Shown here piece after piece: positions 15,902 through 64,000 of a stretch of 64,000 nucleotides of DNA; the stretch's first letter is position 1; the number at the start of each line of letters is the position of its first letter. The stretch is from positions 48,651,297-48,715,296 of the forward strand of contig CM049321.1 in the NCBI GenBank assembly GCA_026874595.1, given 5' to 3'. The notes under the pieces were generated by a model, which ran no database searches, had not been told where the DNA came from, and was given only the letters and a program-made list of their open reading frames with translations. The translations under genes were made by a program, and so were the position numbers. Source of the stretch: Sipunculus nudus. Taxonomy: Eukaryota; Annelida; Sipuncula; Golfingiida; Sipunculidae.

Positions 15902-15966
<65 letters not shown>

Positions 15967-17318: not shown

Positions 17319-17370
<52 letters not shown>

Positions 17371-17928: not shown

Positions 17929-18010
<82 letters not shown>

Positions 18011-18390: not shown

Positions 18391-18428
18391 CCACGGCTCA
18401 TCAAGTAGCTGTTGAATATTCAAATTAC

Positions 18429-20041: not shown

Positions 20042-21303
20042 AATTTTAATTTTATTAATTTTAAATCATAGATTATCCAACACTAAGCAGCATCGCAATA
20101 TTACAACTACATAATCGGGATTGTCCTTTACCAAACAAGTTTAGTCTTATTAACGAAACCTGTTTTGATGTTTGTAGATATATATGTATATTATTTAATT
20201 TTTGTAAGTGTATATACATGTATATATTTATACATAATATTGATTAATAAACATTTTAAAGAAATTTGCTTTTTTAACTTTTTGTGCGCATGATAATTGT
20301 AGAAGCATGGGTCGGCGCTAATCAAACATTAGCTTCAAGTTAGACCGACCGATTCTGAAGAGCTCATTGTCATGTTTAAACTCTGTCAATTTAAAGATAA
20401 TGTGTACGGCACAATTGTAAGCTTTTGATGGGATCATCGATACGAACATTTCTTAGCATTTTGTTAGCTCAGCTGACTATAAGTCATCTGAGCCATAGTC
20501 GTGGTCCATTGACGGTCGTCCGTCCGTCTGTCCCGTCCGTAAGACTGGCACGTTTCGACACCATTGGACCTACGAATCTGAAACGGCCTACAGTTAGATG
20601 TCCCCAAAATCTCCTACCATGCCGAAAATTGGGTAAATAGGACTTCATTCCTTCGAGATATTAAGGAAAAACCTCAATATTTTATTAGAAATCTATTTTC
20701 ACACTTCAGGACTGCCTTATATTAAAACCACTCATCTGGTTTTCTTCATATTTACAAAAAATATTCCTCTATATAGTTCCATGTACATGCCAGAAATTAA
20801 GTCAGTATTATATAATTTAAAAAGTTAAGGGCCCAAACATAATGGACTTTGTAAAAAATCAGGAAAGATATTTGGCCACTTAAGAGAAAAAATGTTAAAC
20901 CTAGGGACTTTTTCCAGTAATTTAGTTAATCAAAATTTAATTGTATCCCAAAATTAGATCAAAATCTGTTAAATTTTTTTAAATATTAGCAAAAATATAA
21001 ATTTGGTACCTTAACTTTTGCCCAAGTTTGACCATGGCATGTTTCTTTCTTGTAAGAACATTTTATTTACTTTTCACAGTCGGTATATATATATATATAG
21101 ATTTAATCTATTTAATTCTGAAATTTGAAAGTAAAAGCTTGAAAATTATTCTAGTTATTGAAGTTTTTCTGAGACTCTAATGTATTTACATTTTGAACCT
21201 GCAGACCAGCCATGTCTGGTCCCTACAGCCTTGTCTGGGTAAACTTATTAGTGATGCAAGGCTGCTGTCACAAATGTAGAATCACATGTGGCAACCCTAA
21301 CCA

Positions 21304-21318
21304 CCCCCCCCCCCCCCC
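21304..21318. repeat. Poly-C tract found only in unit 1
   Basis: Fifteen consecutive C in the ~0.7-kb segment missing from the other units. Confidence 0.85.
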
Positions 21319-22125
21319 GCCCAACCAGATATGTTGCATTAGTTACATTCTTAAATTGCATTGCTGTTTCCGGTCCAATGTATACAACTTTTCCTGAATC
21401 AAGTGTTATTTTCAGAAATTTATTATTTTGCAAATTTCAAAAATATATTTTAAGAAAAAATAAATACAGCTGTGTATATAATGTGATGTTGCCTGAGCAG
21501 ATTAACTATAAATGTGGATGCAATTTAGAATTGTTAATCAACTTAAATTTTCAAATATAATTGATATATTTACTGTAAAGTAAATGTATAGGAAAATATA
21601 ATTTTTTTTCCAAAATTTCTCTTAACAAAAAAATTATGAATTAAAAAAAATGATCTAATGCAGACAGTCGTTCAGTATTTTTCTGCCTCAGTAGAAATGG
21701 AATTAAAGTGATTTGCTTTGTTTTTCTATATTTCTGTCTGTTTGTAAATACGCAGAGGTGTTGTACCGTTCCTCACTCCCTGCCACTGAGTGAACGTTTG
21801 GGACAATATTCTTCTGGAAACTGCATATAATTTATTACTGGCAATTAAAGAAAAAAATATACAGAGGTACAAAGGTGTTTTTAAACTCTCATCCTCCCCG
21901 CCAACCCATCCCCCCCCCCCCCAATCAGGTCGAACAGCTGAGTCCTCATGTAACCTTTCACCACCACACAACACCAGATTTTGAGTCATCTCTTCTCTAT
22001 ATTCACACTCAGACTCAGTCACTTCAGATCGTTTTTCCTCTATAGATCACCCGCATGTCCCATCAGTAACTTCTTCTCTAAACTGAAAAGTTTCAGTCTC
22101 TCAAGTTTACCTCAACCTGCCTATA

Positions 22126-22362
22126 GTGATCATGGGCGATTTCAATATTGACATTTCTAATATAATATATAACACCAAATTGACACAATTATGTCAACTC
22201 TTTAAATGTCAACAACTAGTCAGAGAGCCAACCAATCTTATCTTTTCTAACGGTTTAAATGCTTCAGTTTCAACATTAGAAAACACATGGTCAGATCACA
22301 AAATATTATTAGCAACAATCCCCCATTCTTCAATTCAGAACAAATATAGCAACTTCTCATAG
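22126..22362 (+). pseudogene. LINE-type endonuclease fragment, unit 1
   Basis: Contains MGDFNIDIS and WSDHKILL, the C-terminal catalytic motifs (GDxN and SDH) of the endonuclease/exonuclease/phosphatase fold in non-LTR retrotransposons. The stretch between REPTN and LIFSN is shortened relative to units 2 and 5, losing DHGNTID. The N-terminal half of the domain and any reverse transcriptase are absent, so it cannot be a working retrotransposon enzyme. Confidence 0.75.
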
Positions 22363-22750
22363 CTTAATCTACCATTTCTTCTCTATAGATACTTTTTGAG
22401 ACATTCTGTTTCCTCTCCTGTTCAGCAAAAACTGTTTCCCAAAATATATCAGTTTTCTACTTTTCCATAATTATATTGATTTATTAAATGTGTATTTTTA
22501 TACTTGCAAATCTCCACTTCCTTCCTCTGCAATTTACAACATCTGGTCATTCCCGATGCTATATTTTAGACACAAATTCTTGTCATATTTGAAATACTGA
22601 TACTTCTATATTACTATTCCGCTCAACTACATAATTAATACAAAAAATTACATCTGTCAAAATGAAATCTTACAGACCTACATACAACAATGATGATACA
22701 TTTATATCTGTCGCATTCAGTTGAGCGCCGTGACCCATGGGTCCCTTGTT

Positions 22751-24770
22751 ATATATGCCTTTTTCACCTTCCCCTCATATTTGCTCTGAGCTGACAACTC
22801 ATGTGCCATTAAATAGGTAAAATATGCATTACTAGATGCCATAACTGTTAAGTGCCCTGTTGCTTTTAGTAATATTTGCTAGTTTAGAAATGCGGTATTA
22901 AATTCGCCTCTTTCTGGACTACCGAGAATCGGCGCCGTTACCTTATTTAATGTAATACTCAAGAATTTGCTGAGAAATCTCAGATAAAAGATTCATATGA
23001 TCTCATTTTTTGGTGTGGAGACCAAAATAATCCTCACATATTTACATATTGAAGAATGGACTGTTGGCGTTGAGGTCTGCATACTACTAGTACTATAGAG
23101 TACTTGTACTATTGGCTACAGAGGTAACTGGGTCTATATGTACTCTCCCTGTAAACAAAATAATATTATTAAATGTATCCAACATGAAATATTTACATTC
23201 AAGTGTATGTTTTTTTAATTTTTAAAAGAACGTACTTTCAATTTCGTTCCGGTGTTATAGTTTAAAAAAAATTTTCCCCATAATATTCTAAGGATGTAAT
23301 TGAAATATTTCTATCATCCCGACATTTTTATCGTTGGATACTGTTTTTATTGATGCGTTGTAAACATCACCTTAACATTTAATAATTCTGTTTAATCATG
23401 TCATTCTGTTGGCTTTTTATAAGGTTTTGTTATATTACTTTAACATCAATGAATTGTACGGAAAAGTAAAAAAAAATGGTTAAGATTGTTTTAAGCTGGT
23501 GGTTCTGCCGACTGTCAGTGGTGATTTGTAAAACTCAAGTCTGCGTGTGAGAGAAAAAGGCAGTTTATATTCTCTTTTATTGTACTTAATTATAGATAAA
23601 AATGGACGTATTTAATTATTAATATGCAGAAAAAATTCATACGGCATGAGCTAATTTATATTAGTTTATATAAATATTAGATATAAGAATTTAGAATGAT
23701 TGTCTTCCAAATGAGTATCAAAGTGTATGCCAAACTGCCAATCCTAAAATCTCCTCAAAATACATTAAAAAAATTTCTATTTAAAGGTCGACTCCATCCT
23801 TTTGGGGGCAATATTTTCTGTATGTTATTATGATAATAGACTTTCCCTTTTCTCATGCAAACTTTTCATGTCAAAGTAAACATCGACGTCTTTTCTATTT
23901 TTAAAATCTTCCAACAAAACAAAATCTTGTGAAACCCGTCATATTATTCACGTTAACTTTTTGAAAGTATTACTCACCAAATAAATGATTTCGTTTCTCG
24001 TTTCCATTCCAAGAAGATGAGTATGGTCCAGTTGAAAATAATCCGAAATACTGTCAAAATAATGATGCAACAGGAAACTTATTTTCCCAAAGAAGGGATT
24101 CTTTTTTTAATTTTTACTTACAAGCACAACTTACATATAACTGTAGCATTAGATGATTAATTACTGATACCATGAAATACAAATCAGATCAGATATTTAA
24201 TTGTTTTTAAATAAACTGTCAAACGCTCAAAACGCATTGCAACAGGGATAAATATCTACATAAATCACATAGCTGCTATTTGGATTAAAGTGACATTCAT
24301 TAAGCAAATAGCATTCACGTAAATACGACATTATCTCATGAATGAAGATGCCCTTCACTATGCATTTAGCAAGTAAGTGTCAATGCTGTAGATCTCTTTT
24401 ATAAGACTAAATGTTCCTTTTACTATCAGTGCCACGTGTTCTGCTCAGGGGCGTATTTTCTTAAACACTAAGCTTGTCTACGTTTTTGCCTTTCACTGTA
24501 ATTATTTACTGTCTTGGCTGCAGTATAAACGGATAGCCCAAAAAGTGCAATAATTTTCTTATGACTTATCTTCACTATCCTTGACAGTATAAGAATAGTT
24601 GCGCAAGCCCTTGCAGGAGCACAGTTTATATACTTAACTCAATTTTACACTATTTTGTCTGTAAACTTTTTTACGGGTTTATATAGCAGCGCTATCACAG
24701 GGAAAAACCAATGAGGTCGTTTAGGATACGATGGTAAAAAAATAAACCAATAGTTACTGATGTGTTATAT
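22751..24770. other. Unit 1 spacer between element and lectin gene
   Basis: About 2 kb conserved in most units with no recognised gene; it lies 3' of the minus-strand lectin. No AATAAA for the lectin is close to its stop. The nearest candidate on the minus strand is TTTATT (plus strand) at 23577-23582, with ATTAAA variants nearer. Confidence 0.5.
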
Positions 24771-24994
24771 TTAACACGCAACTTTCTTTTCACATAGAGC
24801 TTCATTATAAACGTTCTTTGATTCATCAGACCATGTGAAATCAGGTTTTAAAACAATATATCTGTTCCATGGCAAATTGGAGGGTTTCATAACGGCCCAA
24901 CGCGTATACTGGATTTCTGTTCCGCTTCCGGTCCAAACCCATTTTCCGTCGTCTTCTCGGTGCCCGGATGTCCAGTAGCTTTTAGGTAGCTCAA
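24771..24994 (-). CDS. Lectin copy 1, exon 3: C-terminal half of the CTLD and stop
   Basis: 224 nt, ending in TAA (24771-24773). Encodes YWTSGHREDDGKWVW, TRWAVMKPSN, WSDES and ALCEKKVAC. Confidence 0.88.
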
Positions 24995-26721
24995 CTATTA
25001 ACACCAAAATAAACCAAGAACAATGTGGCAATAGTTAAAAGTGTTTTACCTGAAAGCAAAAGCCAAACGGAAAAGGGAATACCAAAAATAGTAGTCAAGT
25101 GAAGATGAAACGTATACACGTACGGGGTCATTCCTCCATCTGTTCCATCAATTCTTAGAAATTGTACTTTTTTTCGCAAGGGGCAATTGCAGGACCATTT
25201 ATCAGGAACTATGCGAACTCTTTAGCCACCAGTAATTTATATCAGTATAATATGTATTATATCAGTATAATATGTATTACCGTCTGAACGTAGCACTCTC
25301 TCTAGATGTATCATCTCTACCCGAGTTTCGATGCTGAGAAGACTAGCATGTCTCATCCGACAATCACGCCGGGCACCGGCTTGTGTCCGGAATTCAGGGA
25401 CAAAACTTGACCAGTAACAAGACGCTGTACCCTTCCCAGCCTCTTGATAAGGATAAGCGAAGCCTTTTGGGCACTTTGGTTCTGCAAGTACAGAAAGTTG
25501 AACTGCAAGTTGTTATCGATATATTAACATGCTACGCTTCGCGACATCATTTTTTATATTAGTGTCAATAATGTATCAATATTTTTACAAGCATGACTAC
25601 TACTGATTTACTGTTATAGAATTAAGGTAACTATAACAAATTTAGATTTGGATGAGTAAATTGCCGAAAGCCCGTGTAAACATTCATTGTGGTTGTTGTA
25701 GAAAATAGCAGGAATGGAAAGAAATGGTCTAAATAGGGTCTAATGATCTGATGATCAAAGCAAATTGAACCATCAAAATCAATTCACCCAAAAACACTTG
25801 GTGCAATAATATTTTTATACAATGCAAGTATCGTAATAGGTATCGCAATGCGCTATAACATATTGTTATACAGTAAACCTCGCCTTACGACCACCTCGTT
25901 TCCGCGACACCCTCAAAATAACGACCACTTTCTCATGATCCCAATTCTTATTTGCTCTATATCACACCTCGCTTCGACGAACACCTCAAAAGTGTTACCA
26001 ATTTATCGAGGTCCCTTTGGTGGTCGTAAGTTTGAGGTTTAACTGTTTATTGCAATACGAACATCATAGGCAATGTGTACTCACGGCATTTGCTTGTGCG
26101 AGGGTAAGCGCACGAGGACTGGATACTCGTTGCCATGGATATGACGTCACTGAACGAGACACTGAGCTGTATTCCTTGAGGGCATGTGCCAATGCATTTG
26201 CGCTCAAGCACTTTGGGTTTCCCTTTTATAGGCCTACCATCCTGTGTTGTCCCTTGAGTAGTCAGGACGTTACCTTACCATAAATGAATAGATAAAATAT
26301 TTATGCCTGAATATTTTTTTTCTGTTTTCATTCAAGAGGGCGAAGAAATTACGATTGTAATATCTTTTTGTTAATCTTATCAGCATACCAAAAGCTGATG
26401 GATCAAATAAACCCTGATTTCGTTGAAGAAAATGATTCTTTCTTTTAAAAATTAGTCACATTTATCATTTTAACTCATATTTATGTAGAAAAACTAAATG
26501 TGAACAAAGAAAATTCATAAATACTTCATCTTCGACGAATTGGCGTTAGTTTATTTACTGAGCTTCCTTATATTAAAATGACCATACATTGAAACTAATC
26601 TTTGATACTAGAAAAGCAGTGTCCCCTCCAGGAGTAGGATGGTTATCCTATTTTTGTTGTAAAGAAGATATATATTTTTACCTGTCAGAACGGACACACT
26701 TAAGAAAGTGTTGAGAAGCAT
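24771..26721 (-). CDS. C-type lectin-like secreted protein, copy 1 (intact)
   Basis: Three exons on the minus strand: 26682-26721 (signal peptide), 25281-25481 and 24771-24994. Both introns are phase 1 (donors GTAAAA and GTAATA, acceptors TTGCAG and TTAATAG). The product is 154 residues. MLLNTFLSVSVLT is a short hydrophobic leader. The CTLD has CPKGF (C17), CYW (C35), the RRDC helix (C54), LLSIET, YWTSG (87-91), GKWVW (97-101), WSDE (135-138) and ALCEK (C148). C17-C35 and C54-C148 fit the long-form and core disulfides of the family. The second core pair is missing: Tyr126 and Ser139 stand where cysteines are expected. KPS (117-119) replaces EPN or QPD, so classical mannose or galactose binding through calcium is doubtful. 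C154 is an extra terminal cysteine. The likely role is an extracellular recognition protein; the ligand is unknown. Confidence 0.85.
25281..25481 (-). CDS. Lectin copy 1, exon 2: N-terminal half of the CTLD
   Basis: 201 nt, phase 1 on both sides. Encodes PKCPKGFAYPYQEAG, CYWSSF, the A..RDC helix and LLSIETRVEM. The donor is followed by two ~20-bp copies of an ATACATATTATACTGAT sequence in every unit. Confidence 0.88.
25871..26045. mobile_element. MITE-like palindromic element in lectin intron 1, unit 1
   Basis: Inverted ends CAGTAAACCTCGCCTTACGA and the complementary GGTGGTCGTAAGTTTGAGGTTTAACTG, about 175 bp, preceded by TA. Internal GACCACCT blocks repeat. The ends look like those of pogo/Tigger- or mariner-type elements. 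No coding capacity. Confidence 0.65.
26085..26230 (-). promoter_or_regulatory. Candidate second promoter and first exon inside lectin intron 1
   Basis: On the minus strand a TATA box (TATAAAAG, 26223-26230) is followed by a palindromic CRE (TGACGTCA, 26142-26149), an ATG in good context (26134-26136) and 17 codons (MATSIQSSCAYPRTSKC) ending at a GTGAGT donor in phase 1. That phase matches lectin exon 2. The TATA box, CRE, ATG and donor recur in the other complete units. Two in-frame ATGs upstream lead to a short frame with a stop. The product would lack a signal peptide. It is a candidate only. Confidence 0.4.
26682..26721 (-). CDS. Lectin copy 1, exon 1: signal peptide
   Basis: A 40-nt coding exon giving MLLNTFLSVSVLT and one extra base, with donor GTAAAA. 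The phase-1 end joins exon 2 to give ...LTEPKCPKG. The coding sequence is identical in all five copies inside the window. An out-of-frame ATG 16 bp upstream opens a short overlapping frame. A CACGTG E-box lies at 26816-26821 and a weak TATATAAT near 26830. Confidence 0.75.
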
Positions 26722-28934
26722 GAAGTTTTGTTTGAAGGCATCTGCTGAAATTGTGAAGTTTAGAATATTCAGAGATATCGTACATTATTAGATGACCAGG
26801 TTTTACCATTAATATCACGTGTTTAAATAATTATATATGTAAAATCGTGCAGTGCTTCGAATGAGAATACAAGAGAATTGTTCAGAGGAGTTAACGTAAA
26901 TATAAACAGACAAATACTAATATTTATAAAATGAGAGTGGTATATTAGAAAAGGTCCAGAGACACTATCCTTATCTTTCCAATGCCAGGTGTTTAAAGGA
27001 AAACATCACATCTAAAAAGTACTACAGTTCGGCAATATATTTTCGGATAAAGTGACTGTGGTCCAGTTTGTAAGGAAGTACAGCTCACTGAAATATGTTA
27101 TATTTATTTATCATAAGTAAACGAAGCACTTACAAGCAGACTGGCATAAACTGTAGAACTAGGTGAGTTCGTAGTGTCGTATGCTATATTGGTTGCAGGA
27201 ATAAGTTCCATAAAATTGTTTAACTACCTTGCTTTTAGAAAATTTGATTGAAACCCGAATCAAAACAGAGGAAAACAAACCACTCTTCTCAAACCCGTGA
27301 AGGCAGTGTGATTATAAACAGTAAACACACTAGTCTGAACCTACATCTCTGTATGAATGATCAGAAATGCTCTATTAACTGATGGATCGGGTTTAGGACT
27401 TTTGTGTGTGATTAATGCCAATCAACTCTTAGATTCCATATTTTGACGCTGTGTTTTGTGTTTGATAGAAGCATTCGTTTTTCTGGTTTTATTCTCATAA
27501 ACAATAGTCCTTTATAACATGTTTCTGGTAATGACACTATTATAAGCCCCAAACACTCCGATCAATAAAGGTTTTCAAATTATTCAAATCGTCCATAGGC
27601 TTCTATAATAAAGCTATTTTTAAATTGAGCTAAATTGAGCTCAGCAGCCTTAATGAACATTCGTCGGATACATGATGTTTAAAATGCAATTTTGACGTTG
27701 ATGGAGTGCATTTATTAAGTAAAAAATGAAAGGTAGGAAATAGGAGGCCTTTCCTGTAAAAACTGGACTTTTATGCCTTGAATCAGAAAGGATAATTGTC
27801 CTTTGAATGGACAGAAACCTAAAATGCATTAAAACGGAAGTACATTAATATTTGACACGAAATCCAAACAGTTCATGGACTTTGATATTACTACTGTTCG
27901 TGGCGAGATAATTACCCAGATAAGAAGTAGGCTTGTAATTGGTGGCCGAGATGACAATCTAAGAGAATAACGGTTTTAAAGATGTTGAGATTTGCTCAGT
28001 ATATCAGTCTGCACACAAAAAGATGACAGCTTGCCGTAAGACACAACAAAGTGTGGACTCAGTAGTCCCTGGTGGATAAAGTTCAAAGTCAGGCCAAGTA
28101 AATTATCGCGGAAATCACAACAGAAATGTTAAGCTGTATTGTTGAAAGAAAGTTAAACCCTCTTTCAGGAATATGAAAGGTGATGCAATCAGGTAAAATG
28201 AATGTTCACCAATAAGGCGTAATACTATTTTTGTTGAAGGAATACAATAAAGTAAAACAGCAGTTTTATGAATAAGTACTGGCAGTTTATAGTCACCTGT
28301 AACCATAAAGCTGGTAAAGTTCATCCAGTGACAGCCATGAGGATTATGGCGTTAATCCAGTGACAATCATAACGCTGATGACGTTATTTCAGTGATAATT
28401 ATGACGATCATAGCGTAAAGTGAAATTCTGTTATCTTAATTTACTTTAATGATACTATTGCATGAATGACGAGCAGAATAAAAAAAATTCCTACTGCTTC
28501 CACCTTCCCAGTGAAAGAAAAATATTATCATTTGTAGCTGAAACGCCTGGATGCCCTTAATCGCCCTCTATGGTGAATTCATTTGTGGCGGAATGGTGGA
28601 ATTCTTTACTAAGGCTCATTGTTTTCATTTTATATCAGTGTCATGTGTCATGCTTATAACTGTAGCTTCATAAGACTTAACTTGCCCACGTTTTTGCCTT
28701 ACAATGTACATTTTTATTATTTTTTTCTGGCCTGCGCGGTAGTGTAAATTATGTCAAATTGATGTGCAATATTTCAAATGACACGTCTGTAAAAATTCAG
28801 TATGAAATGAAAGTTGACATTAAACAAATAATGTTACACAGAACGCTGCCTTATTATGAAACATTAGATAAAATACACATGTGAAGTCTTTAATTCCTGC
28901 AAGAAGAAGTCTAAATCACAAATGTAGTAATAAT
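26722..28934. other. Unit 1 right part, upstream of the lectin start
   Basis: About 2.2 kb shared by the units (partly deleted at the unit 3/4 junction). No gene recognised. Two short + strand frames stay open in several copies: 27833-27970 (contains TTVRGEIITQIRSRL here, VRDE elsewhere) and 28729-28884 (contains KLMCNISND and LPYYETLDKIHM). They match no family I know. Confidence 0.4.
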
Positions 28935-30650
28935 GTAAGCTCTTGACGGGATCATCGATACGAACATTTTTTCAGCATTTTTAGCTCGGCTGACTATAAG
29001 TCATCTGAGCCATAGTCGTGGTCCATTGTCCGTCGTGCGTCCGTCCGGATGTCCCTTCCGTAAGACTGGCACGTTTCGACACCATTGGACTTACAAATCT
29101 GAAATTCGGCATACAGTCAGGTGTCCCCAAAATCTCCTACCATGCCGAAAATTCGGTCAATAGGACTTCGTTCCTTTGAGATATTAAGGAAAAACCTCAA
29201 TATTTTATTAGAAATCTATTTTAACACTTCAGGACTGCCTAATATTAAAACCACTGATCTGTTTTTTTTTCATATTTACCAAAAATATTCCTGTATATAG
29301 TTCCTATGTACATGCCAGGAATTAAGTCAGTATTATATAATTTAAAAAAGTTATGGGCCCAAACATAATGGACTTTGTAAAAAATCAGGAAAGATATTTG
29401 GTCACTTAAGAGAAAAAGTGTTAAAGCTAGGGACTTTTTTTCAGTAATACAACTTTAATTAATCAGAATTTGATTGTATACCAAAATTATTCATTCAGTA
29501 CTTTTCTGCCTCAGTAGAATGGGAATTAAAGGGATTTGCATTGTTTTTCTATCTCTCTGTCTGTTTTTATATTTTCAATAATTATGAATAAAACTTTTTT
29601 TACCTGTAAGCACTTTTGGATTAAATTTTGTTTCCTGTATGTTTATGCAGAGGAGTTGTAACTTTCCTCACTCCCTGCCACTGATTATTTGTTTGGGACA
29701 ATATTCTTCTGGCAACTGCATAAATTTTATTACTGGAAAATAAAGAAAAAAATCAGAGGTACAAAGGTGTTTTAAAACTCTCATCCCCCCCCCCCCCCCA
29801 TTAGGTCGAACAGCTGAGACCCCATGTAACCCTTCACCACCACACAACACCAGATTTTGAGTCATCTCTTCTCTGTATTCACACTCAGATTGTCACTTCA
29901 GATTGTTTTCCTCTAAAGGTCACCCGCATGTCCCATCAGTAACTTCGTCTCTGAACTCCCAAGTTTCAGTCTCTCAAGTTGACCTCAACCTGCTTATAGT
30001 GATCATGGGCGATTTCAATATTGACATTTCTAAAATAATATATAACACCAAATTGACACAATTATGTCAACTCTTTAAATGTCAACAGCTAGTCAGAGAA
30101 CCAACCAATGACCATGGAAATACCATAGATCTTATCTTTTCTAACTGTTTAAATGCTTCAGTTTCAACATTAGAAAACGCATGGTCAGATCACAAGATAT
30201 TATTAGCAAGAATCCCTCATTCTTCAATTCAGATCAAACATGGCAACTTCTCATAGCTTAATCTACCATTTCTTCTCTATAGATACTTTGTGATACATTC
30301 TTTTTCCTCTCCCTTTCAGCAACAACTGCTTCCCAAAACATATCAGTTTTCTACTTTTCCATAATTATTTGATTTATTAAATGTGTATTTTTATACTTGC
30401 AAATCTCCACTTCCTTCCTCTGCAATGTTCAACATCTGGTCATTCCCAATGCAATACTTTAGACGCACATTTATTTACATATTTGAAATACTGATAATTG
30501 TATATTACTATTTCGCTCAACTGCATAAATAATACAAAAAGTTACATCTGTCAAAATAAAATCTTACAGACGTACATACAATAATGGTGATAAAATTATA
30601 TCTGTCGCATTAAGTTGAGCGCCGTGACCCATGGGTCCCTTGTTTTATAT
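28935..30650 (+). mobile_element. Unit 2 hairpin/endonuclease-fragment element
   Basis: The 5' hairpin (28984-29010) has arms GCTCGGCTGAC and GTCATCTGAGC; the 3' end has the perfect GACCCATGGGTC palindrome before CCCTTGTT. A C tract lies at 29785-29799. It contains the longest open endonuclease fragment (29903-30256) and is about 1.7 kb, against 2.3 kb in unit 1. Confidence 0.7.
29903..30256 (+). pseudogene. LINE-type endonuclease C-terminal fragment, unit 2 (open)
   Basis: 117 codons: LLIVIMGDFNIDIS, REPTNDHGNTIDLIFSN and AWSDHKILLARIPH are recognisable EEP-fold segments of non-LTR retrotransposon endonucleases. The ATG is only the first in the frame; the N-terminal catalytic residues are missing. 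Some Helitron-related elements also carry such an endonuclease, so the source could be either class. Confidence 0.75.
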
Positions 30651-41400: not shown

Positions 41401-41533
41401 AGGGTCAGAAGATCTGATGATCAAAGCAAATTAAACCCTCAAAATCAAGTCACACGAAAACACTTAAATCCGTAATTTTATACAATGCAAGTATCGTAAT
41501 AGGCATGGCAATACGCTATCACATATTGTTATA

Positions 41534-41708
41534 CAGTAAACCTCGCCTTACGACCACCTCGTTTCCGCGACACCCTCAAAATAACGACCACTTTCTCATG
41601 ATTCCAATTCTTATTTGCTCTATATCACACCTCGCTTCGACGACCACCTCAAAAATGTGACCAATTTATCGAGGTCCCTTTGGTAGTCGTAAGTTCGAGG
41701 TTTAACTG
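41534..41708. mobile_element. MITE-like element, unit 3, first copy
   Basis: Carried in the left half of the 569-bp duplication. Confidence 0.6.
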
Positions 41709-46100: not shown

Positions 46101-47200
46101 TATATGCCTTTTTCACCGTCCCCTCATGTTTGCTCTAAGCTAACAACTCATGTGCCATTAAATAGTAAAAATATGCATGACTAGATGCCATAATTGTTAA
46201 GTGCCTTGTTGCTTTTAGTTATATTTGCTAGTCTAAAAAAGCGGTAATAAATTCGCCTCTTTCTTGCCTACCGAGAATCGGCGCTGTTACCTCATTTAAT
46301 CTTAATACTCAAGAATTTGCTGAGAAATCTCAGAAAAAAGATTCATATGATCTCATTTTTTGGTGTGGAGACAAAATAATCCTCACATATTTACATTATA
46401 AAATATGGACTGTTGGCGTTGAGGGGTGCATGATACTAGTACTATAGTGTACTTGTACTATTGGGTATAAAGCTAACTGGGTCCATGATATGTACTTTCC
46501 CTGTAAAATGTTATTAAATGTATCCCATATGAAATATTTAAATTTGAGTGTATTTTTTTTTAATTTTAAAAGAACATACTTTCAATTTCGTTCCGGTGTT
46601 ATACTTTAAAAATGAAAACATTTTCCCATAATATTCTAAGGAGGTTTTTGAAATACTTCTATCATCCCGAAATTTTTATCTTTGGATACCGTTTTTATTG
46701 ATGCGTTTTCAAGATCACCATAACATTAAATAATTCTATTTAATCATGTCATTCTGTTGGTTTTTTATAAGGTTTTGTTACATTACTTTAATATCAATGA
46801 AATGTACGGAATAGTAAAAAAAAAAATTGTTAAGATTGTTTTAAGCTGGTTGTTCTGCCGACTGTCAGTGGTGATTTGTAAAACTCAAGTCTGTGTGTGA
46901 GAGAAAAAGGCAGTTTATATTCTCTTTTATTGTACTTATTTATAAATAAAAATAGACGTACTTAATTATTAATATACAAAAAACATTCATACGGCATGAG
47001 CTAAGTTATATTAGTTTATATAAATACTAGATATGAGAATTTAGAATGATTGTCTTCCACATGTGTATTACAGAATGTCTATCAAAGTGTATGCCAAACT
47101 GCCAATCCTAAACTCGCCTTAAAAAGACATAAAAACATTTTCTATTAAAAAGTCTACCCCATCCTTTGGGGGCAATATTTTCTGTATGGTTATTTTATAA

Positions 47201-52972: not shown

Positions 52973-54981
52973 TATATGCCTTTTTCACCGTCCCCTCATG
53001 TTTGCTCTAAGCTTACAACTCATGTGCCATTAAAAAGGTAAATTATGCATGACTAGATGCCATAATTGTTAAGTGTCCTGTTGCTTTTAGTAATATTTGC
53101 TAGTCTAGAAATGCGGTATTAAATTCGCCTCTTTCTTGCCTACCGAGAATCGGCGCCGTTACCTCATTTAATCTTAATACTCAAGAATTTGCTAAGAAAT
53201 CTTAGATAAAAGATTCATATGATCTCATTTTATGGTCTGGAGACCAAAATAATCCTCACATATTTACATTATGCAATATGGACTGTTGGCGTTGAGGGGT
53301 GCATGATACTAGTACTATAGTGTACTTGTACTATTGGGTATAAAGCTAACTGGGTCCATGATATGTACTTTCCCTGTAAAATGTTATTAAATGTATCCCA
53401 TATGAAATATTTAAATTTAAGTGTATTTTTTTAATATTTAAAAGAACATACTTTCAATTTCGTTCCGGTGTTATAGTTTAAAAATGAAAACATTTTCCCA
53501 TAATATTCTAAGGATGTTATTGAAATACTTCTATCATCCCGAAATTTTTATCGTCCGATACTGCTTTTATTGATGCGTTGTCAAGATCACCTTAACATTA
53601 AATAATTCTGTTTAATCATGTCATTCTGTTTTCTGGCTTTTTATAAGGTTTTGTTACATTACTTTAAAATCAATAAATTGTACGGAGAAGTAAACAAAAA
53701 ATGGTTAAGATTGTTTTAAGCTGGTGGTTCTGCCGGCTGTCAGTGGTGATTTGTAAAACTCAAGTCTGTGTGTGAGAGAAAAAGTCTCTTTTATTGTATT
53801 TATTTATAAATAAAAGTGGACGTACTTAATTATTAATATACAAAAAAAACATTCATACGGCATGAGCTAATTTATATTAGTTTATATAAATATTAGATAT
53901 GAGAATTTAGAATGATTGTCTTCCAAATGAGTATCAAAGTGTATGCCAAACTGCCAATCCTATACTCCCCTCAAAATACATAAAAAAAATTCTATTAAAA
54001 GGTCGACTCCAGCCTTTTAGGGGCAATATTTTCTGTATGTTATTATGATAATAGACTTTCCCTTTTCTCATGCAAACTTTTCATGTCAAAGTAAACATCG
54101 ACGTCTTTTCCATTTTTAAAATCTTCTAACAAAACAAAATCTTGTGAAACCCGTCACATTATTCACGTTAACTTTTTGAAAGTATTACTCTCCAAATAAA
54201 TGATTTCGTTTCTCGTTTCCATGCCAAGAAGCTGAGTATGGTCCAGTTGAAAATAATCCGAAATACTGTCAAAATAATGATGCAGCAGAAAACTTTTTTC
54301 CCAAAGAAGGGATTTTAAAAATTTTTAATTATAAGCACGACTTATAATCTATATAACTGTAGCAATCAGGTGATTAATTACTGACACCTTGAAATACAAA
54401 TCAGACCAGATTCTTAATTGTTTTTAAATAAATTGACAAACGCTGAAAAACCATTGCAACAGGGATAAATATCTACATAAATCACATAGCAGCTATTTGG
54501 ATTAAAGTAACATTCATTAAGCAAATAGCATTCACGTAAATACGACATTATCTCATGAATGAAGATTCCCTTCACCATGCATTTAGCAAGTGTCAATGCT
54601 GTAGATCTCTTTTATAAGACTAAATGCTCTTTCACTATCAGTGCCACGTGTTCTGCTCAGGGGCGTATTTTCTTAAACACTAAGCTTGTCTACGTGTTTT
54701 CCTTTCACTGTAATTATTTACTGTCTTGGCTGCAGTGTAAACGGAAAGCCCAAAAAGTGCAATAATTTTCTTATGACTTATCTTCACTCACCTTGACAGT
54801 ATAAGAATAGTTGCGCAAGCCCTTGCAGGAGCAAAGTTTATATACTTAACTCAATTTTTATACTATTTTGTCTGTGAAGTTTTTTCGGGTTTATATAGCA
54901 GCGCTTTCACAGGGAAAATCAATGAGGTCGTCCAGGATACGATGGTAAAAAAATAAACCAATAGTTACTGATGTGTTATAT

Positions 54982-56937
54982 TTAACACGCAACTTCCTTT
55001 TCACATAGAGCTTCATTATAAACGCCCTTTGATTCATCAGACCATGTGAAATCAGGTTTTAAAACAATATATCTGTTCCATGGCAAATTGGAGGGTTTCA
55101 TAACGGCCCAACGCGTATACTGGATTTCTGTTCCGCTTCCGGTCCAAACCCATTTCCGTCGTCTTCTCGGTGCCCGGATGTCCAGTAGCTTTTAGGTACC
55201 TCAACTATTTACACCAAAATAAACCAAGAACAATGTGGCAATAGTTAAAAGTGTTTTACCTGAAAGCAAAAGCCAAACGGAAAAGGGAATACCAAAAATA
55301 GTAGTCAAGTGAAGATGAAACGTATACACGTATGGGGTCATTCCTCCATTTGTTCCATCAATTCTTAGAAATTGTACTTTTTTTCGCAAGGGGCAATTGC
55401 AGGGCCATTTATCAGGAACTATGCGAACTCTTTAGCCACGAGTAATTTATATCAGTATAATATGTATTATATCAGTATGATATGTATTACCGTCTGAACG
55501 TAGCACTCTCTCTAGATGTATCATCTCTACCCGAGTTTCGATGCTGAGAAGACTAGCATGTCTCATCCGACAATCACGCCGGGCACCGGCTTGTGTCCGG
55601 AATTCAGGGACAAAACTTGACCAGTAACAAGACGCTGTAGCCTTCCCAGCCTCTTGATAAGGATAAGCGAAGCCTTTTGGGCACTTTGGTTCTGCAAATA
55701 CAGAAAGTTGAACTGCAAGTTGTTATCGATATATTAACATGCTACGCTTCGCGACATCATTTTTTTTTTATATTAGTGTCAATAATGTATCGATATTTTT
55801 ACAAGCATGACTACAACTGATTTACTGTTATAGAATTAAGGTAACTATAACAAATTTAGATTTGGATGAGTAAATTGCCGAAAGCCCGTGTTAACATTCA
55901 TTGTGGTTGTTGTAGAAAATAGCAGGAATGGAAAGAAATGGTCTAAATAGGGTCTAATGATCTGATGATCAAAGCAAATTGACCCCTCAAAATCAATTCA
56001 CCCGAAAACACTTGGTGCCATTATATTTTTATACAAAGCAAGTATCGTAATAGGTATCACAATGCGCTATAACATATTGTAATATAGTAAACCTCGCCTT
56101 ACGACCACCTGGTTTTAGCGACAACCTCATAATAACGACCACTTTCTCATGATCCCAATTCTTATTTGCTCTATATCACACCTCGCTTCGACGAACACCT
56201 CAAAAGTGTTACCAATTTATCGAGGTCCCTTTGGTGGTCGTAAGTTCGAGGTTTAACTGTTTATTGCAATGCGAACATCATAGGCAATGTGTACTCACGG
56301 CATTTGCTTCTGCGAGGTTTAGCGCACGAGGACTGGATACTCGTTGCCATGGATATGACGTCACTGAACGGGACACTGAGCTGTATTCCTTGAGGACATG
56401 TGCCAAAGCATTTTCGCTCAAGTACTTTTGGTTTCCCTTTTATAGGCCTACCATCCAGTGTTGTCCCTTGAGTAGTCAGGACGTTACCTTACCATAAATG
56501 AATAGATAAACTATTTATGCCTGAATATGTTTTTTTTTTCTGTTTTGCATTCAAGAGGGCGAAGAAATTATGATTGTAATATCTTTTTGTTAATCTTATC
56601 AGCATACCAAAAGCTGATGTATCAAACAAACCCTCATTTCTATGAAGAAAATGATTCTAGTTTTTAAAAATTAGTCACATTTATCATTTTAACTCATATT
56701 TATGTAGAAAAACTAAATGTGAACAAAGAAAATTCATGAATACTTTATCTTCGACGAATTGGCGTTAGTTTATTTACTGAGCTTCCTTATATTAAAAGAC
56801 CATACTTTTAAACTAATCTTTAATACTAGAAAAGCAGTGTCCCCTCCAGGAGTAGGATGGTTATCCTATTTTTGTTGTAAAGAAGACATATTTTTACCTG
56901 TCAGAACGGACACACTTAAGAAAGTGTTGAGAAGCAT
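54982..56937 (-). pseudogene. C-type lectin copy 5 (frameshifted)
   Basis: Exons 56898-56937, 55491-55691 and 54982-55204. Exons 1 and 2 are open and close to copies 1 and 2. Exon 3 is 223 nt instead of 224 because one T is missing in the run at 55153-55155, shifting the frame at about codon 98 (GKWVW). Copy 4 has a deletion at the same position, so the lesion is shared by descent or conversion, or it is a homopolymer sequencing error. Confidence 0.8.
56085..56259. mobile_element. MITE-like element in lectin intron 1, unit 5
   Basis: The left end reads TAGTAAACCTCG, a C-to-T change in the otherwise conserved CAGT terminus; unit 6 shares it. Confidence 0.6.
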
Positions 56938-59094
56938 GAAGTTTTGTTTGAAGGCATCTGCTGAAATTGTGAAGTTTAGAATATTCAGAGATATCGTACA
57001 TTATTAGATGACCAGGTATTAACATTAATATCACGTGTTTAAATAATTATATCTGTAAAATCGTGCAGTGCTTCGAATGAGAATACAAGAGAATTGTACA
57101 GAGGAGTTAACGTAAATCTAAACAGACAAATACTAATATTTATAAAATGAGAGTGGTATATTAGAAAAGGTCCAGAGACAATATCCTTATCTTTCAAATG
57201 CCAGGTGTTCAAAGGAAAACAGCACATCTAAAAAGTACTACAGTTCGGCAATATATTTTCGGATAAAGTGAACTGTGGTCCAGTTTGTAAGGAAGTACAG
57301 CTCACTGAAATATGTTATATTTATTTATCATAAGTAAACGAAACACTTACAAGCAGACTGGCATAAACTGGAGAACAAGGTGAGTTCGTAGTGTCGTATG
57401 CTATATTGGTTGCAGAATAAGTTCCATAAAATTGTTTAACTACCTTGCTTTTAGAAAACTTGATTGAAATCTGAATCAAAACAGAGGAAAACAAACCACT
57501 CTTCTCAAACCCGTGAAGGCAGTGTGATTATAAACAGTAAACACGCTAGTCTGAACCTACATCTCTGTATGAATGATCAGAAATGCCCTTTTTAACTGAT
57601 GGATAGGGTTTAGGACTTTTGTGTGTGATTAATGCCAATCAACTCTAAGATTCCATATTTTGACGCTATGTTTTGTGTTTGATAGAAGCATTCGCTTTTC
57701 TGGTTTTATTTCCATAAACAATAGTCCTTTATAACATGTTCCTGGTAATGACACTATTATAAGTCCCCAACACTCCGATCAATAAAGGTTTTTAAATTAT
57801 TCAAATCGTCCATAGGCTTCTATGATAAAGCCATTTTTAATACTAAATTGAGCTTAGCAGCCTGAATGAACATTCGTCGGATACATGTTTAAAATGCTAT
57901 TTTGACGTTGATGAGTGCATTTATAGGAGGCCTTTCCTGTTAAAACTGGACTTTTATGCCTTGAATCAGAAAGGATAATTGTCGTTTAAATGGACAGAAA
58001 CCTAAAATGCATTAAAACGGAAGTACATTAATATTTGACACGAAATCAAAACAGTTCATGGACTTTGATATTACTACTGTTCGTGACGAGATAATTACCC
58101 AGATAAGAAGTAGGCTTGTAATTGGCGGCCGAGATGACAATCTTAGAGAATAGCGGTTTTAAAGATGTTGATATTTGCTCAGTATATCAGTCAGCACGCA
58201 TAAAGATGACAGCTTGCCGTAAGACACAAAAAAGTGTGGACTCAGTAGTCCCTGGTGGATAAGTTCAAAGTCAGGCCAAGTAAATTATCGCGGAAATCAC
58301 AACAGACATGTTAAGCTGTATTGTTGAAAGAAAGTTAAACCCTCTTTCAGGATTATGAAAGGTGATGCAATCAGGTAAAAGGAATGTTCACCAATAAGGC
58401 AATACTATTTTTGTTGAAGGAATACAATAAAGTAAAACAGCAGTTTATAGTCACCTGTAACCATAAGGCTGGTAAAGTTCATCCAGTGACAGCCATGAGG
58501 ATTATGGCGTTAATCCAGTGACAATCATAACGCTGATGACGTTAATTCATTGATAATTATGACGATCATAGCGTAAAGTGAAATTCTGTTATCTTAATTT
58601 ACTTTAATGATACTATTGCATGAATGACGAGCAGAATAAAAAAAATCCCTACTGCTTCCACCTTCCCAGTGAAAGAAAAATATTATCATTTGTAGCTGGA
58701 ACGCCTTGATGCCCTTCATCGCCCTCTATGGTGAATTCATTTGTGGCGGAATGGTGGAATTCTTTACTAAGGCTCATTGTTTTCATTTTATAACAGAGTC
58801 ATTTGTCATGCTTATAAGTGTAGCTTCATAAGACTTAACTTGCCCACGTTTTTGCCTTACAATGTACATTTTTATTATTTTTTTTCTGGCCTGCGCGGTA
58901 GTGTAAATGATGTCAAATTGATGTGCAATATTTCTAATGAGACGTCAGAAAACATTCAGTATGAAATGAAAGTTGACATTAAACAAATAATGTTACATAG
59001 AACGCTGCCTTATTATGAAACATTAGATAAAATACACATGTGAAGTCTTTAATTCCTGCAAGAAGAAGTCTAAATCACAAATGTGGTAACAATT

Positions 59095-60811
59095 ATAAGC
59101 TCTTGATTGGATCATCGATACGAACTTTTTTGCAGCATTTTTAGCTCGGCTGACTATAATTCATCTGAGCCATAGTCATGGTCCATTGTCCGTCGTCCGT
59201 CCGTCCGGATGTCCCGTCCGTAAGACTGGCACGTTTCGACACCATTGGACTTACGAATCTGAAATTCGGCATACAGACAGATGTCCCCAAAGTCTCCTAC
59301 CATGCCGAAAATTCGGTCAATAGGACTTCGTTCCTTTGAGATATTAAGGAAAAACCTCAATATTTTATTAGAAATCTATTTTAACACTTCATGAGTGCCT
59401 AATATTAAAACCACTGATCTGTTTTTTTTTATATTTACGAAAAATATTCCTGTATATAGTTCCTAAGTATATGCCAGAAATTAAGTCAGTATTATATAAT
59501 TTAAAAAAGTTATGGGCCCAAACAAATGGACTTTGTAAAAATTAAGGAAAGATATTTGGTCATTTAAGAGAAAAAGTGTTAATGCTAGGGACTTTTTTTC
59601 AGTAATACAACTTTAATTAATCAACATTTAATTGTATACCAAAATTATTCATTCAGGACTTTTCTGCCTCAGTAGAATGGGAATTAAAGTGATTTGCTTT
59701 GTTTTTCTACCTCTCTGTCTGTTTTTGTATTTTCAATAATTATGCATAAAACTTTTTTTACCTTTAAGCACTTTTGGATTAAATTTTGTTTTCTGTATGT
59801 TTATGCAGAGGAGTTGTAACTTTCCTCACACCCTGCCACTGAATATTTGTTTGAGACAATATTCTTCTGGCAACTGCATAAATTTTATTACTGAAAAATA
59901 AAGAAAAAAAATCAGAGGTATTAAGGTGTTTTAAAACTCTCATCCCCCCCCCCCCCCCCCCCATCAGGTCGAACAGCTGAGTCGCCATGTAACCCTTCAC
60001 CACCACACAACACCAGATTTTGAGTCTTCGCTTCTCTGTATTCACACTCAGACTCAGTCACTTCAGATTGCTTTCCTCTATAGGTCACCCGCATGTCCCA
60101 TCAGTAACTTCGTCTCTGAACTCCCAAGTTTCAGTCTCTCAAGTTGACCTCAACCTGCTTATAGTGATCATGGGCCATTTCAATATTGACATTTCTAAAA
60201 TAATATATAACACCAATTTGACACAATTATGTCAACTCTTGAAATGTCAACAGCTAGTCAGAGAACCAACCAATGACCATTGAAATACCATAGATCTTAT
60301 CTTTTCTAACTGTTTAAATGCTTCAGTTTCAACATTAGAAAACGCATGGTCAGATCACAAGATATTATTAGCAAGAATCCCCCATTCTTCAATTCAGATC
60401 AAACATGGCAACTTCTCATAGCTTAATTTACTATTTCTTCTCTTTAGATACTTTTTGAGACATTCTTTTTCCTCTCCCTTTCATCAACAACTGCTTCCCA
60501 AAACATATCAGTTTTCTACTTTTCCATAATTATTTGATTTATTAAATGTGTATTTTTATACTTGCAAATCTCCACTTCCTTCCTCTGCAATTTTCAACAT
60601 CTGGTCATTCCCAATGCAATACTTTAGACATACATTCATTTACATATTTGAAATACTGATAATTGTATATTACTATTCCGCTCAACTACATAATTAATAC
60701 AAAAAAATTACATCTGTCAAAATGAAATCTTAAAGACGTACATACAATAATGGTGATACAATTATATCTGTCGCATTCAGTTGAGCGCCGTGACCTATGG
60801 GTCCCTTGTTT
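59095..60811 (+). mobile_element. Unit 6 hairpin/endonuclease-fragment element
   Basis: The 5' hairpin is near 59145-59171, with ATAATTCATC in place of ATAAGTCATC in the right arm. It has the longest C tract (59944-59962). The endonuclease fragment (from about 60074) has GHFNIDIS instead of GDFN, losing the key aspartate, and a TGA at 60281-60283. Confidence 0.7.
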
Positions 60812-62802
60812 TATATGCCTTTTTCACCGTCCCCTCATGTTTGCTCTAAGCTTACAACTCATGTGCCATTAAATAGGTAAAATATGCATGACTAGATGCC
60901 ATAATTGTTAAGTGTCCTGTTGCTTTTAGTAATATTTGCTAGTCTAGAAATGCGGTATTAAATTCGCCTCTTTCTTGCCTACAGAGAATCGGCGCCGTTA
61001 CCTCATTTAATCTTAATACTCAAGAATTTGCTAAGAAATCTCAGATAAAGGATTCATATTATCTCATTTTTTGCTGTGGAGACCAAAATAATCCTCACAT
61101 ATTTACATTATGAAGAATGGATATGGACTGTGGCGTTGAGGGGTGCATGATACTAGTACTATAGTGTACTTGTACTATTGGGTATAAAGCTAACTGGGTC
61201 CATAATATGTACTTTCCCTGTAAAATGTTATTAAATGTATCCCATATGAAATATTTAAATTTAAGTGTATTTTTTTAATATTTAAAAGAACATACTTTCA
61301 ATTTCGTTCCGGTGTTATAGTTTAAAAATGAAAACATTTTCCCATAATATTCTAAGGATGTTATTGAAATACTTCTATCATCCCGAAATTTTTATCGTTC
61401 GATACCGTTTTTATTGATGCGTTGTCAAGATCACCTTAACATTAAATAATTCTGTTTAATCATGTCATTCTGTTTTCTGGCTTTTTATAAGGTTTTGTTA
61501 CATTACTTTAAAATCAATAAATTGTACGGAAAAGAAAAAAAAATGGTTAAGATTGTTTTAAGCTGGTGGTTCTGCCGACTGTCAGTGGTGATTTGTAAAA
61601 CTCAAGCCTGTGTGTGAGAGAAAAATCTCTTTTATTTTACTTATTTATAAATAAAAATTGGACGTACTTAATTATTAATATACAAAAAACATTCATACGG
61701 CATGAGCTAATTTATATTAGTTTTAATAAATATTAGATATGAGAATTTAGAATGATTGTCTTCCAAATGAGTATCAAAGTGTATGCCAAACTGCCAATCC
61801 TATACTCCCCTCAAAATACATAAAAAAATTTCTATTAAAAGCTCGACTCCATCCTTTTAGGGGCAATATTTTCTGTATGTTATTATGATAATAGACTTTC
61901 CTTTTTCTCATGCAAACTTTTCATGTCAAAGTTAACATCGACGTCTTTTCCATTTTTAAAATCTTCTAACAAAACAAAATCTTATGAAACCCGTCACTTT
62001 ATTCACATTAACTTTTTGAAAGTATTACTCTCCAAATAAATGATTTCGTTTTTCGTTTCCATGCCAAGAAGCTGAGTATGGTCCAGTTGAAAATAATCCG
62101 AAATACTGACAAAATAATGATGCAAAACGAAACTTTTTTTAATTTTTAATTACAAGCACGACTTTTATATAACTGTAACGATTAGATGATTAATTACTGA
62201 TACAATGAAATACAAATCAGATCAGATTTTTTAATTGTTTTTAAATAAATTGTCAAACGCTGAAAACGCATTGCAACAGGGATAAATATCTACATAATGA
62301 GATAGCTGCTATTTGGATAAAAGTGACATTCATTAAGCAAATAGCATTCACGTAAATACGACATTATCTCATGAATGAAGATGCTCTTCACCATGCATTT
62401 AGCAAGTAAGTGTCGATGCTGTAGACCTCTTTTATAAGACTAAATGTTCCTTTTAGTATCAGTGCCACGTGTTCTGCTCAGGGGCGTATTTTCTTAAACA
62501 CTAAACTTGTCTACGTTTTTGCCTTTCACTGTAATTATTTACTGTCTTGGCTGCAGTGTAAACGGATAGCCCAAAAGTGCAATAATTTTCTTATGACTTA
62601 TCTTCACTATCCTTGACAGTATAAGAATAGTTGCGCAAGCCCTTGCAGGAGCACAGTTTATATACTTAACTCAATTTTACACTATTTTGTCTGTGAAGTT
62701 TTTTACGGGTTTATATAGCAGCGCTATCACAGGGAAAAACCAATGAGGTCGTTTAGGATACGATGGTAAAAAAATAAACCAATAGTTACTGATGTGTTAT
62801 AT

Positions 62803-63503
62803 TTAACACGCAACTTCCTGTTCACATAGAGCTTCATTATAAACGCCCTTTGATTCATCAGACCATGTGAAACCAGGTTTTAAAACAATATATCTGTTCC
62901 ATGACAAATTGGAGGGTTTCATAATGGCTCAACGCGTATACTGGATTTCTGTTCCGCCTCCGGTCCAAACCCATTTTCCGTCGTCTTCTCGGTGCCCGAA
63001 TGTCCAGTAGCTTTTAGGTAGCTCAACTATTTACACAAAAATAAACCAAGAACAATGTGGCAATAGTTAAAAGTGTTTTACCTGAAAGCAAAAGCCAAAC
63101 GGAAAAGGGAACACCAGAAATAGTAGTCAAGTGAAGATGAAACGTATACAAGTACGGGGTCATTCCTCCATTTGTTCCATCAATTCTTAGAAATTGTACT
63201 TTTTTTTCGCAAGGGGCAATTGCAGGGCCATTTATCAGGAACTATGCGAACTCTTTAGCCACGAGTAATTTATATCAGTATAATATGTATTATATCAGTA
63301 TGATATGTATTACCGTCTGAACGTAGCACTCTCTCTAGATCTATCATCTCTACCCTAGTTTCGATGCTGAGAAGACTAGCATGTCTCATCCGACAATCAC
63401 GCCAGGCACCGGCTTGTGTCCGGAATTCAGGGACAAAACTTGACCAGTAACAAGACGCTGTACCCTTCCCAGCCTCTTGATAAGGATAAGCGAAGCCATT
63501 TGG
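62803..63503 (-). pseudogene. C-type lectin copy 6 (partial in window, stop and truncated exon)
   Basis: Exon 3 is 62803-63026 and contains TGA at codon 113 (plus-strand TCA at 62929-62931) where the other copies have TGG in TRWAVM. Exon 2 is 63314-63503; its first bases, encoding PKCP, and the splice acceptor are deleted together with about 90 bp of intron 1. The signal-peptide exon would lie beyond the window. Confidence 0.82.
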
Positions 63504-63812
63504 TGTCAATAATGTATCGATATTTTTACAAGCATGACTACAACTGATTTACTGTTATAGAATTAAGGTAACTATAACAAATTTAGATTTGGATGAGTAA
63601 ATTGCCGAAAGCCCGTGTTAACATTCATTGTGGTTGTTGTAGAAAATAGCAGGAATGGAAAGAAATGGTCTAAATAGGGTCTAATGATCTGATGATCAAA
63701 GCAAATTGACCCCTCAAAATCAATTCACCCGAAAACACTTGGTGCCATTATATTTTTATACAAAGCAAGTATCGTAATAGGTATCACAATGCGCTATAAC
63801 ATATTGTAATAT

Positions 63813-63987
63813 AGTAAACCTCGCCTTACGACCACCTGGTTTTAGCGACAACCTCATAATAACGACCACTTTCTCATGATCCCAATTCTTATTTGCTCTA
63901 TATCACACCTCGCTTCGACGAACACCTCAAAAGTGTTACCAATTTATCGAGGTCCCTTTGGTGGTCGTAAGTTCGAGGTTTAACTGT
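63813..63987. mobile_element. MITE-like element, unit 6
   Basis: The left end is TAGTAAACCTCG as in unit 5; the right end is close to the window edge. Confidence 0.6.
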
Positions 63988-64000
63988 TTATTGCAATACG

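Follow-up and report, generated by a model that had tools for sequence, protein, structure and literature searches.

How did a small lectin-like gene come to be present at least six times beside a BMPER-type gene in Sipunculus nudus, and are its copies working genes? The window, i.e. the whole stretch of 64,000 nucleotides under study, had been interpreted in a preliminary description as an array of lectin genes expanded together with a mobile element, and this interpretation is partly supported by the present analysis. The reading that we favour, with a probability of about 0.87, is that of a birth-and-death lectin cluster, which would have arisen by tandem duplication and been remodelled by unequal crossing-over and gene conversion, and in which most copies in view are broken.

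Architecture of the array and its neighbour

Comparison of the window with itself, a dot-plot type of check that the preliminary description had suggested, evidences a repeat unit of ~7.8 kb which occurs six times head to tail (U1 to U6, Table 1) from 20413 to the window end, with direct repeats that reach 7.67 kb in length, all plus against plus, and an offset of ~7.83 kb between neighbouring units. The left boundary of the array, the only edge within the window, is placed by the self-comparison at 20411-20416, in agreement with the start claimed before. Pairwise identity is 94.6-97.1% for five of the six units, when aligned in the register of exon 3. Exons 2 and 3 of the lectin gene are each found six times and exon 1 five times, all on the minus strand; the sixth exon 1 would fall past base 64000. 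That gene, introns and spacer were amplified in tandem as one unit is upheld, as is the order exon 3, exon 2, intron 1 and signal-peptide exon within the units. The tandem array is confirmed at the level of the assembled sequence; the window contains no N bases, so that no marked gap accounts for it.

Table 1. Positions of the array units, the lectin copies and other features in the window.
Feature	Positions	Strand	Details or basis
BMPER/crossveinless-2-type gene	5013-18387	+	VWC exons, VWD, C8, TIL
U1, leftmost	20413-28933		self-comparison, unit alignment
Repeated segment, ~555 bp	20413-20956		opens U1; equivalents open each unit
U1-only segment, ~710 bp	~20957-21666		other units without it
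Possible relic of a second, older CTLD exon 2	23978-24034	-	downstream of copy A; further copies at 31858-31932, 39625-39699, 54190-54249, 62030-62089
Lectin copy A, intact, 161 aa	24771-26721	-	exon 1 26721-26682, exon 2 25502-25281, exon 3 24994-24771
U2	28934-36768		self-comparison
Fragment weakly resembling a retrotransposon-type endonuclease	29861-30256	+	Exo_endo_phos E 0.002, below gathering score
Lectin copy B, intact	32613-34564	-	exon 1 34564-34525, exon 2 33344-33123, exon 3 32836-32613
U3	36769-44464		570-bp tandem duplication in intron 1 (41208-42349); deletion of ~790 bp at right end (44464)
Lectin copy C, pseudogene	40436-42958	-	in-frame stop TAA in exon 3
U4	44465-51288		deletion of ~1 kb at 47188-47200
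Lectin copy D, pseudogene	47200-49079	-	exon 3 cut short at 47200 and missing 1 base; exon 2 missing 15 bases
U5	51289-59088		unit alignment
Lectin copy E	54982-56937	-	frameshift, 1-base deletion in exon 3 A run
U6, cut by window end	59089-64000		self-comparison
Lectin copy F	62803-63503	-	exon 3 63026-62803; 3' part of exon 2 63503-63314, acceptor and first bases deleted; exon 1 outside window

The six minus-strand lectin genes described earlier are indeed present as six copies, with a CTLD recognised by Pfam in copy A, but a whole frame is retained in only two of them (A and B), the remaining four being disrupted. The 1-base frameshift in exon 3 is common to copies D and E; in copy E, where a single base of an A run is affected, it might be a base-calling error, and intact copies would then number three. 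In respect to the segment found only in U1, no obvious flanking duplication was found, and thus an insertion in U1 or a deletion in the other units are both possible.

The neighbouring gene, previously described as BMPER, is of the BMPER type as judged from its Pfam domains, and adjoins the array, the frame of its TIL exon stopping ~2 kb before it. The layout of BMPER/crossveinless-2 consists of VWC repeats followed by VWD, C8 and TIL; in agreement, Pfam detects VWC in three exons (two above the gathering score) and then VWD, C8 and TIL in order. A count of five VWC repeats, the number expected of BMPER/crossveinless-2, is suggested by the cysteine pattern as read by eye, but five of the eight presumed VWC exons scanned (5013, 5660, 8131, 13153, 15562) have no Pfam match at E 0.01.

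The lectin-like protein

The lectin gene comprises three exons and encodes a single-domain CTLD protein. Its identity as a C-type lectin holds, as a 140-aa query from copy A matches Pfam PF00059 (Lectin_C) over residues 32-136 with E 7.1e-7 and 30.4 bits, above the curated cut-off of 22.6; PDB matches among CTLDs include the PLA2 receptor, selectins, mosGCTL and codakine. A comparison of the lectin with viral contigs yielded three pattern matches and no relative. Exon 1 had no candidate at strict settings and 13 at relaxed ones, six of which have a phase-1 donor; the one at 26721 was picked by eye because, joined to exon 2, it yields a signal-peptide-like start, MLLNTFLSVSVLTVQLSVLA, read by eye across the exon 1/2 junction in copies A and B. 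This exon is conserved in five units. A second possible acceptor of exon 2 lies 21 bases further in. The protein may be secreted, and copies A and B are presumably expressed.

The only cysteines of copy A are at positions 24, 42, 61, 155 and 161. Following the CTLD cysteine rule, we take Cys61 and Cys155 to be the C1-C4 pair, the position of C4 agreeing with the L-selectin alignment, and these two residues would be bonded. The C2-C3 pair is absent in copy A, where the C3 of L-selectin faces a Lys and its C2 a gap. Also, inspection of the sequence by eye places KPS at the EPN/QPD position and WSD at the WND position, and neither an EPN/QPD-type motif nor the WND of Ca2+-dependent C-type lectins was found. 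Among bivalves, WSD is one of the listed variants, and Ca2+ dependence or sugar binding persists in some lectins whose motifs are unusual. As the protein lacks both the EPN/QPD-type motif and the C2-C3 disulfide, any activity that it has is probably that of a Ca2+-independent CTLD with a binding or structural role, and the joint absence of this disulfide and of the sugar-site motif is of biochemical interest.

Divergence among units and selection on the copies

The units are mosaics. At U1 positions 25554-26057, U3 and U4 are 98% alike and both are 85-92% identical to U1, U2, U5 and U6, while U5 and U6 are 100% alike in both windows of this stretch; in the window that follows, U4 is 98-99% like U1 and U2. 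Units U1 to U5 provide 141 informative sites, and 27 of the 140 adjacent pairs of these sites are incompatible, against a mean of 70.5 and a minimum of 53 in 2000 shuffles. The mosaic structure indicates unequal crossing-over and gene conversion, which we infer to be the mechanism at work. As a limit to this pattern, the exon 2 sequences of U3 and U4 differ from each other by 6.8%, as much as they do from that of U1, which implies that the block common to both is clear in intron 1 and not in exon 2.

Over its leftmost 3.7 kb, U1 shares 84-95% identity with the other units in windows of 400 columns, most other pairs being 93-98% identical there; the edge contrast is uneven, as in the last two left-edge windows (~23468-24240) pairs without U1 also drop to 89-97%. 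Both patterns considered in testing for concerted evolution, mosaic units and a diverged array edge, are found, the latter at the left edge.

For copies A, B and C, with D, E and F left out, pN and pS are.016 and.019 (A-B),.048 and.037 (A-C), and.054 and.056 (B-C). Tallied over every copy that has letters, disrupted copies among them, variable coding sites fall 22, 12 and 15 times on codon positions 1, 2 and 3 (chi-square p 0.2). Purifying selection is not detectable, as pN is close to pS in A, B and C, the power being low with 49 variable sites and with three copies in the pN/pS comparison. Exon differences among A, B and E amount to 8/486, 6/485 and 6/485, and non-exon differences to 2.5-4.0%; this lower exon divergence could reflect constraint instead of recent conversion.

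These results bear on an adaptive expansion, in which copies would have been kept and diversified to recognise different ligands and which we regard as unlikely. In its favour, bivalves have very large CTL repertoires that are modulated by stimuli (PMC10140915), both U3 and U4 differ in exon 2 by 6.8-9.8% from the other units, and the exons of A, B and E are less divergent than their surroundings. Nevertheless, four of the six copies are disrupted and pN approximates pS, and an expansion to six working genes is not upheld, within the low power of the selection analysis; furthermore, in pairs that involve U3 or U4 the divergence of intron 1 (3.7-9.5%) is about equal to that of exon 2 (6.8-9.8%).

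Alternative origins and known systems

The amplification might instead have been driven by a mobile element, either because its copies recombined with one another or because it carried the gene along, a scenario to which we give little weight. Each unit begins with a repeated segment, and the units contain an endonuclease-like fragment, with similar open frames in other units and a length of up to 131 aa. Searched against PDB, this fragment has 99 weak matches, and those listed, 60 in number, are to influenza hemagglutinin (best E 0.0015), a likeness taken as chance; as this value is no worse than that of Exo_endo_phos, the endonuclease label is weak too. A six-frame Pfam scan of U2 returned nothing at E 0.05 and also missed the lectin, which makes it an insensitive scan and weak evidence against the element. 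Three regions were scanned for TIR/TSD (TIR of at least 14, at most 2 mismatches): intron 1 gave one weak match versus 0-1 per shuffle and the surroundings of the element none, whereas the region of the U1-only segment (20900-21760) gave three versus none in each of five shuffles; these three are rich in A+T, carry 2 mismatches and show a duplication of 4 bases or fewer. The U1-only segment also matches the left flank once, over 30 nt (86.7%, E 0.001), while no copy of U2 was found in the 20.4 kb of that flank. The longest inverted repeat within one unit, among the 25 listed of 46 pairs, is 30 nt at 70%, and every segment occurs once per unit, like any duplicated sequence. At the settings used, the MITE formerly placed in intron 1 was dropped on the TIR/TSD, inverted-repeat and left-flank searches, and thus the joint amplification of gene, introns and mobile element stands for gene, introns and spacer but is not demonstrated for the element. 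Scans of the window for tRNA (ARAGORN, bacterial code) and against Rfam at gathering thresholds were empty.

Very improbable, in our view, is an assembly artefact, whereby haplotypes or misjoined reads would have inflated a one- or two-copy locus to six. The 3-5% divergence between units could lie in the allelic range of a very polymorphic animal, and deletions are abrupt at several junctions; however, two haplotypes alone would not be expected to yield six copies, each unit has its own indels and lesions, and the sequence is free of N. Least probable of all is that the array is a working generator of diversity, in which divergent exon 2/intron 1 blocks would be kept in U3 and U4, themselves 6.8% apart in exon 2, and conversion would reshuffle them among units, pseudogenes serving as donors too. 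The variation would then concern the first half of the CTLD, which, devoid of Ca2+ binding and of the C2-C3 disulfide, could dimerise through its C-terminal Cys.

In the birth-and-death reading, a small CTLD gene, presumably secreted, would have been copied head to tail along with its flanking sequence. Exchange between units, by unequal crossing-over and gene conversion, would then have changed the size of the array and mixed its units, while most copies in view were disrupted by a nonsense change, by small deletions and by deletions at junctions. Within a single window, the array clearly exemplifies the growth, mixing and decay of lectin clusters, and it illustrates that counts of lectin domains overstate gene number, as six copies here correspond to two intact frames.

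Among known systems, the expanded bivalve C-type lectin repertoires likewise comprise small single-domain CTLs, secreted as the present protein would be, with lineage-specific expansions, but in the text considered genes are counted per genome and no unit-level array is described (PMC10140915). The P-selectin clusters of Sinonovacula and Mercenaria are also of lectin-superfamily genes, expanded mostly in tandem (Mercenaria clusters 2 to 12), but differ from the present array in that CCP domains dominate and a CTLD occurs in only part of them; the word 'pseudogene' is absent from the main text of that paper (PMC9484242). The Saxidomus SPL-1/2 lectins have KPD (RPD in the SPL-1 A chain) in place of EPN/QPD and do not strictly require Ca2+, but they keep WND and four intrachain disulfides, in contrast to the KPS, WSD and missing C2-C3 pair found here (PMC12842671). 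The CRP-I clusters of Mytilus edulis, although larger and encoding knottin-type peptides rather than lectins, are defence genes in which intact copies, many pseudogenes and recent tandem copies are mixed as in the array here (PMC10138031). By analogy, the array may thus be viewed as resembling reported bivalve immune clusters in kind.

A tandem array beside a BMPER-type gene

Self-comparison of the window, which has 64,000 bases, 34.5% GC and no N, shows directly repeated segments as long as 7.67 kb, which run from 20411–20416 to the right end with neighbouring repeats offset by about 7.83 kb. The tandem array proposed in the preliminary description is thus confirmed, and comprises six units (U1–U6). 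When aligned in the exon-3 register, five of the six have pairwise identities of 94.6–97.1%. A segment of about 710 bp is found in the leftmost unit alone (U1-only segment), without an obvious flanking duplication, and is either an insertion in U1 or a deletion in the other units. A 32-bp tandem repeat (about 3 copies) occurs in four units, and intron 1 of the lectin copy of U3 holds a 570-bp tandem duplication whose copies are 98.6% identical.

The neighbour earlier described as a BMPER ortholog is supported as a BMPER-type gene by its VWC, VWD, C8 and TIL exons, which stand in the order of the BMPER/crossveinless-2 layout. Pfam VWC matched three exons, two of them above gathering score, and had no match in five further exons assigned to VWC by cysteine pattern, so that the repeat number (five) relies on reading by eye. 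Directly past this gene lies a 42-bp tandem repeat. Among the papers searched, none paired BMPER with C-type lectin and mollusc.

Features of the BMPER-type gene and the lectin array
Feature	Position	Strand	Remarks
BMPER-type gene	5013–18387	+	exons for VWC repeats, VWD, C8, final TIL
42-bp tandem repeat	18427–18608
Unit starts (left-boundary register)	20413, 28934, 36769, 44465, 51289, 59089		last unit cut by window end
U1-only segment	20957–21666
Copy A lectin gene		-	exon 1 40 nt (putative signal-peptide start), exon 2 222 nt, exon 3 224 nt; GT donors, AG acceptors
Exon-2-like stretch	23978–24034, 31858–31932, 39625–39699, 54190–54249, 62030–62089	-	similarity to lectin exon 2
32-bp tandem repeat	28304–28406, 36141–36243, 50661–50763, 58462–58564
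Endonuclease-like frame	29861–30256 and equivalents	+
570-bp duplication, copy C	41208–42349		intron 1

The lectin copies and their state

The spliced reading of copy A, the gene in U1, gives a 161-aa protein; its exon 1 was chosen by eye among 13 candidates, and is near-identical across the five units having it in view. Joined exons 2 and 3 match Pfam Lectin_C (E 7.1e-7) as well as solved CTLDs, selectins and codakine included. Copy A has five cysteines (24, 42, 61, 155, 161), and in the L-selectin alignment a lysine stands opposite C3 and the C2 position falls in a gap, from which it follows that the C2–C3 bridge is absent. As read by eye from the copy sequence, the sugar-site motif is KPS and the coordinating motif WSD. 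A 2025 review (PMC12842671) includes WSD and KPD among bivalve motif variants, and states that for the KPD lectins SPL-1/2 Ca2+ is not a strict requirement.

At least six lectin genes had been claimed; six copies (A–F, in U1–U6) are indeed present, but only A and B are intact. Copy C carries an in-frame stop in exon 3. In copy D, 15 bases are deleted from exon 2 and 1 base from exon 3, and the 3' end is truncated. Copy F has lost the acceptor of exon 2 along with the first bases of that exon, and exon 1 of this copy lies beyond the window. Copy E is likewise missing 1 base of exon 3, at the site affected in copy D; since this site is in an A run, the change in E is possibly a base-calling error.

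Downstream of the lectin, five of the six units hold a stretch of 19–25 codons resembling part of exon 2; it is lacking in U4 owing to a deletion there. Its best E value is 0.0003 (copy C query, composition adjustment off), being 0.004 with copy A and the adjustment on; the copy A match scores 28.9 bits, reached by none of 200 shuffled queries (best 25.0). By this similarity, the stretch may be a remnant of an older lectin gene.

Amplified spacer and mobile elements

The spacer is co-amplified with the lectin gene, and to this extent the joint amplification of gene and mobile element formerly proposed stands, but the scans and left-flank search do not establish mobility. The MITE placed in intron 1 is not sustained under the scan settings chosen, as a TIR/TSD scan there gave 1 match against 0–1 per shuffle. 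Around the 555-bp element at the unit start there were 0 matches, and around the U1-only segment 3, A+T-rich and with 2 mismatches, against 0 in five shuffles. Within the 20.4-kb left flank, no copy of U2 was found at E 0.01, and the U1-only segment had a single 30-nt match (E 0.001). A frame of up to 131 aa bears a weak likeness to retrotransposon-type endonuclease (E 0.002, below Pfam gathering score); other units hold similar open frames.

Divergence among units and copies

Comparing the units in 400-column windows, we observed that at U1 positions 25428–26057 U3 and U4 are 96–98.5% alike, each being 85–93% like the other units, and that in the next window U4 is 98–99% like U1 and U2. U5 and U6 are 100% identical in two windows (25554–26057). 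In exon 2 the U3–U4 distance is 6.8%, about equal to that from U1, which indicates that the common U3/U4 block is an intron-1 feature, accompanied by many private exon-2 changes. Of the 140 adjacent pairs formed by 141 informative sites in U1–U5, 27 are incompatible; 2000 shuffles gave a mean of 70.5 and a minimum of 53. These patterns point to an exchange of sequence among the units. Over its left 3.7 kb, U1 is 84–95% identical to other units, most other pairs reaching 93–98% there, as expected for an array edge; in the last two windows of this region pairs without U1 drop too, to 89–97%.

Among copies A, B and C, which the comparison covered, pN is close to pS (A–B.016/.019, A–C.048/.037, B–C.054/.056). 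Variable coding sites at codon positions 1, 2 and 3 number 22, 12 and 15 (chi-square p 0.2), counted where at least 4 copies are present, broken ones included. Against a reading of no constraint, exon differences among copies A, B and E are low (8/486, 6/485, 6/485; surroundings 2.5–4.0%). However, intron 2 divergence among them is likewise low (2.1–2.4%), so that recent regional conversion accounts for this about as well as constraint.

The lectin array fits the pattern of reported bivalve and mussel expansions and clusters. One survey describes bivalve CTL repertoires as the most expanded in all metazoans (PMC10140915), lectin-superfamily tandem clusters of Mercenaria hold 2 to 12 genes (PMC9484242), and genes and pseudogenes are intermixed in a mussel defence-peptide cluster (PMC10138031).
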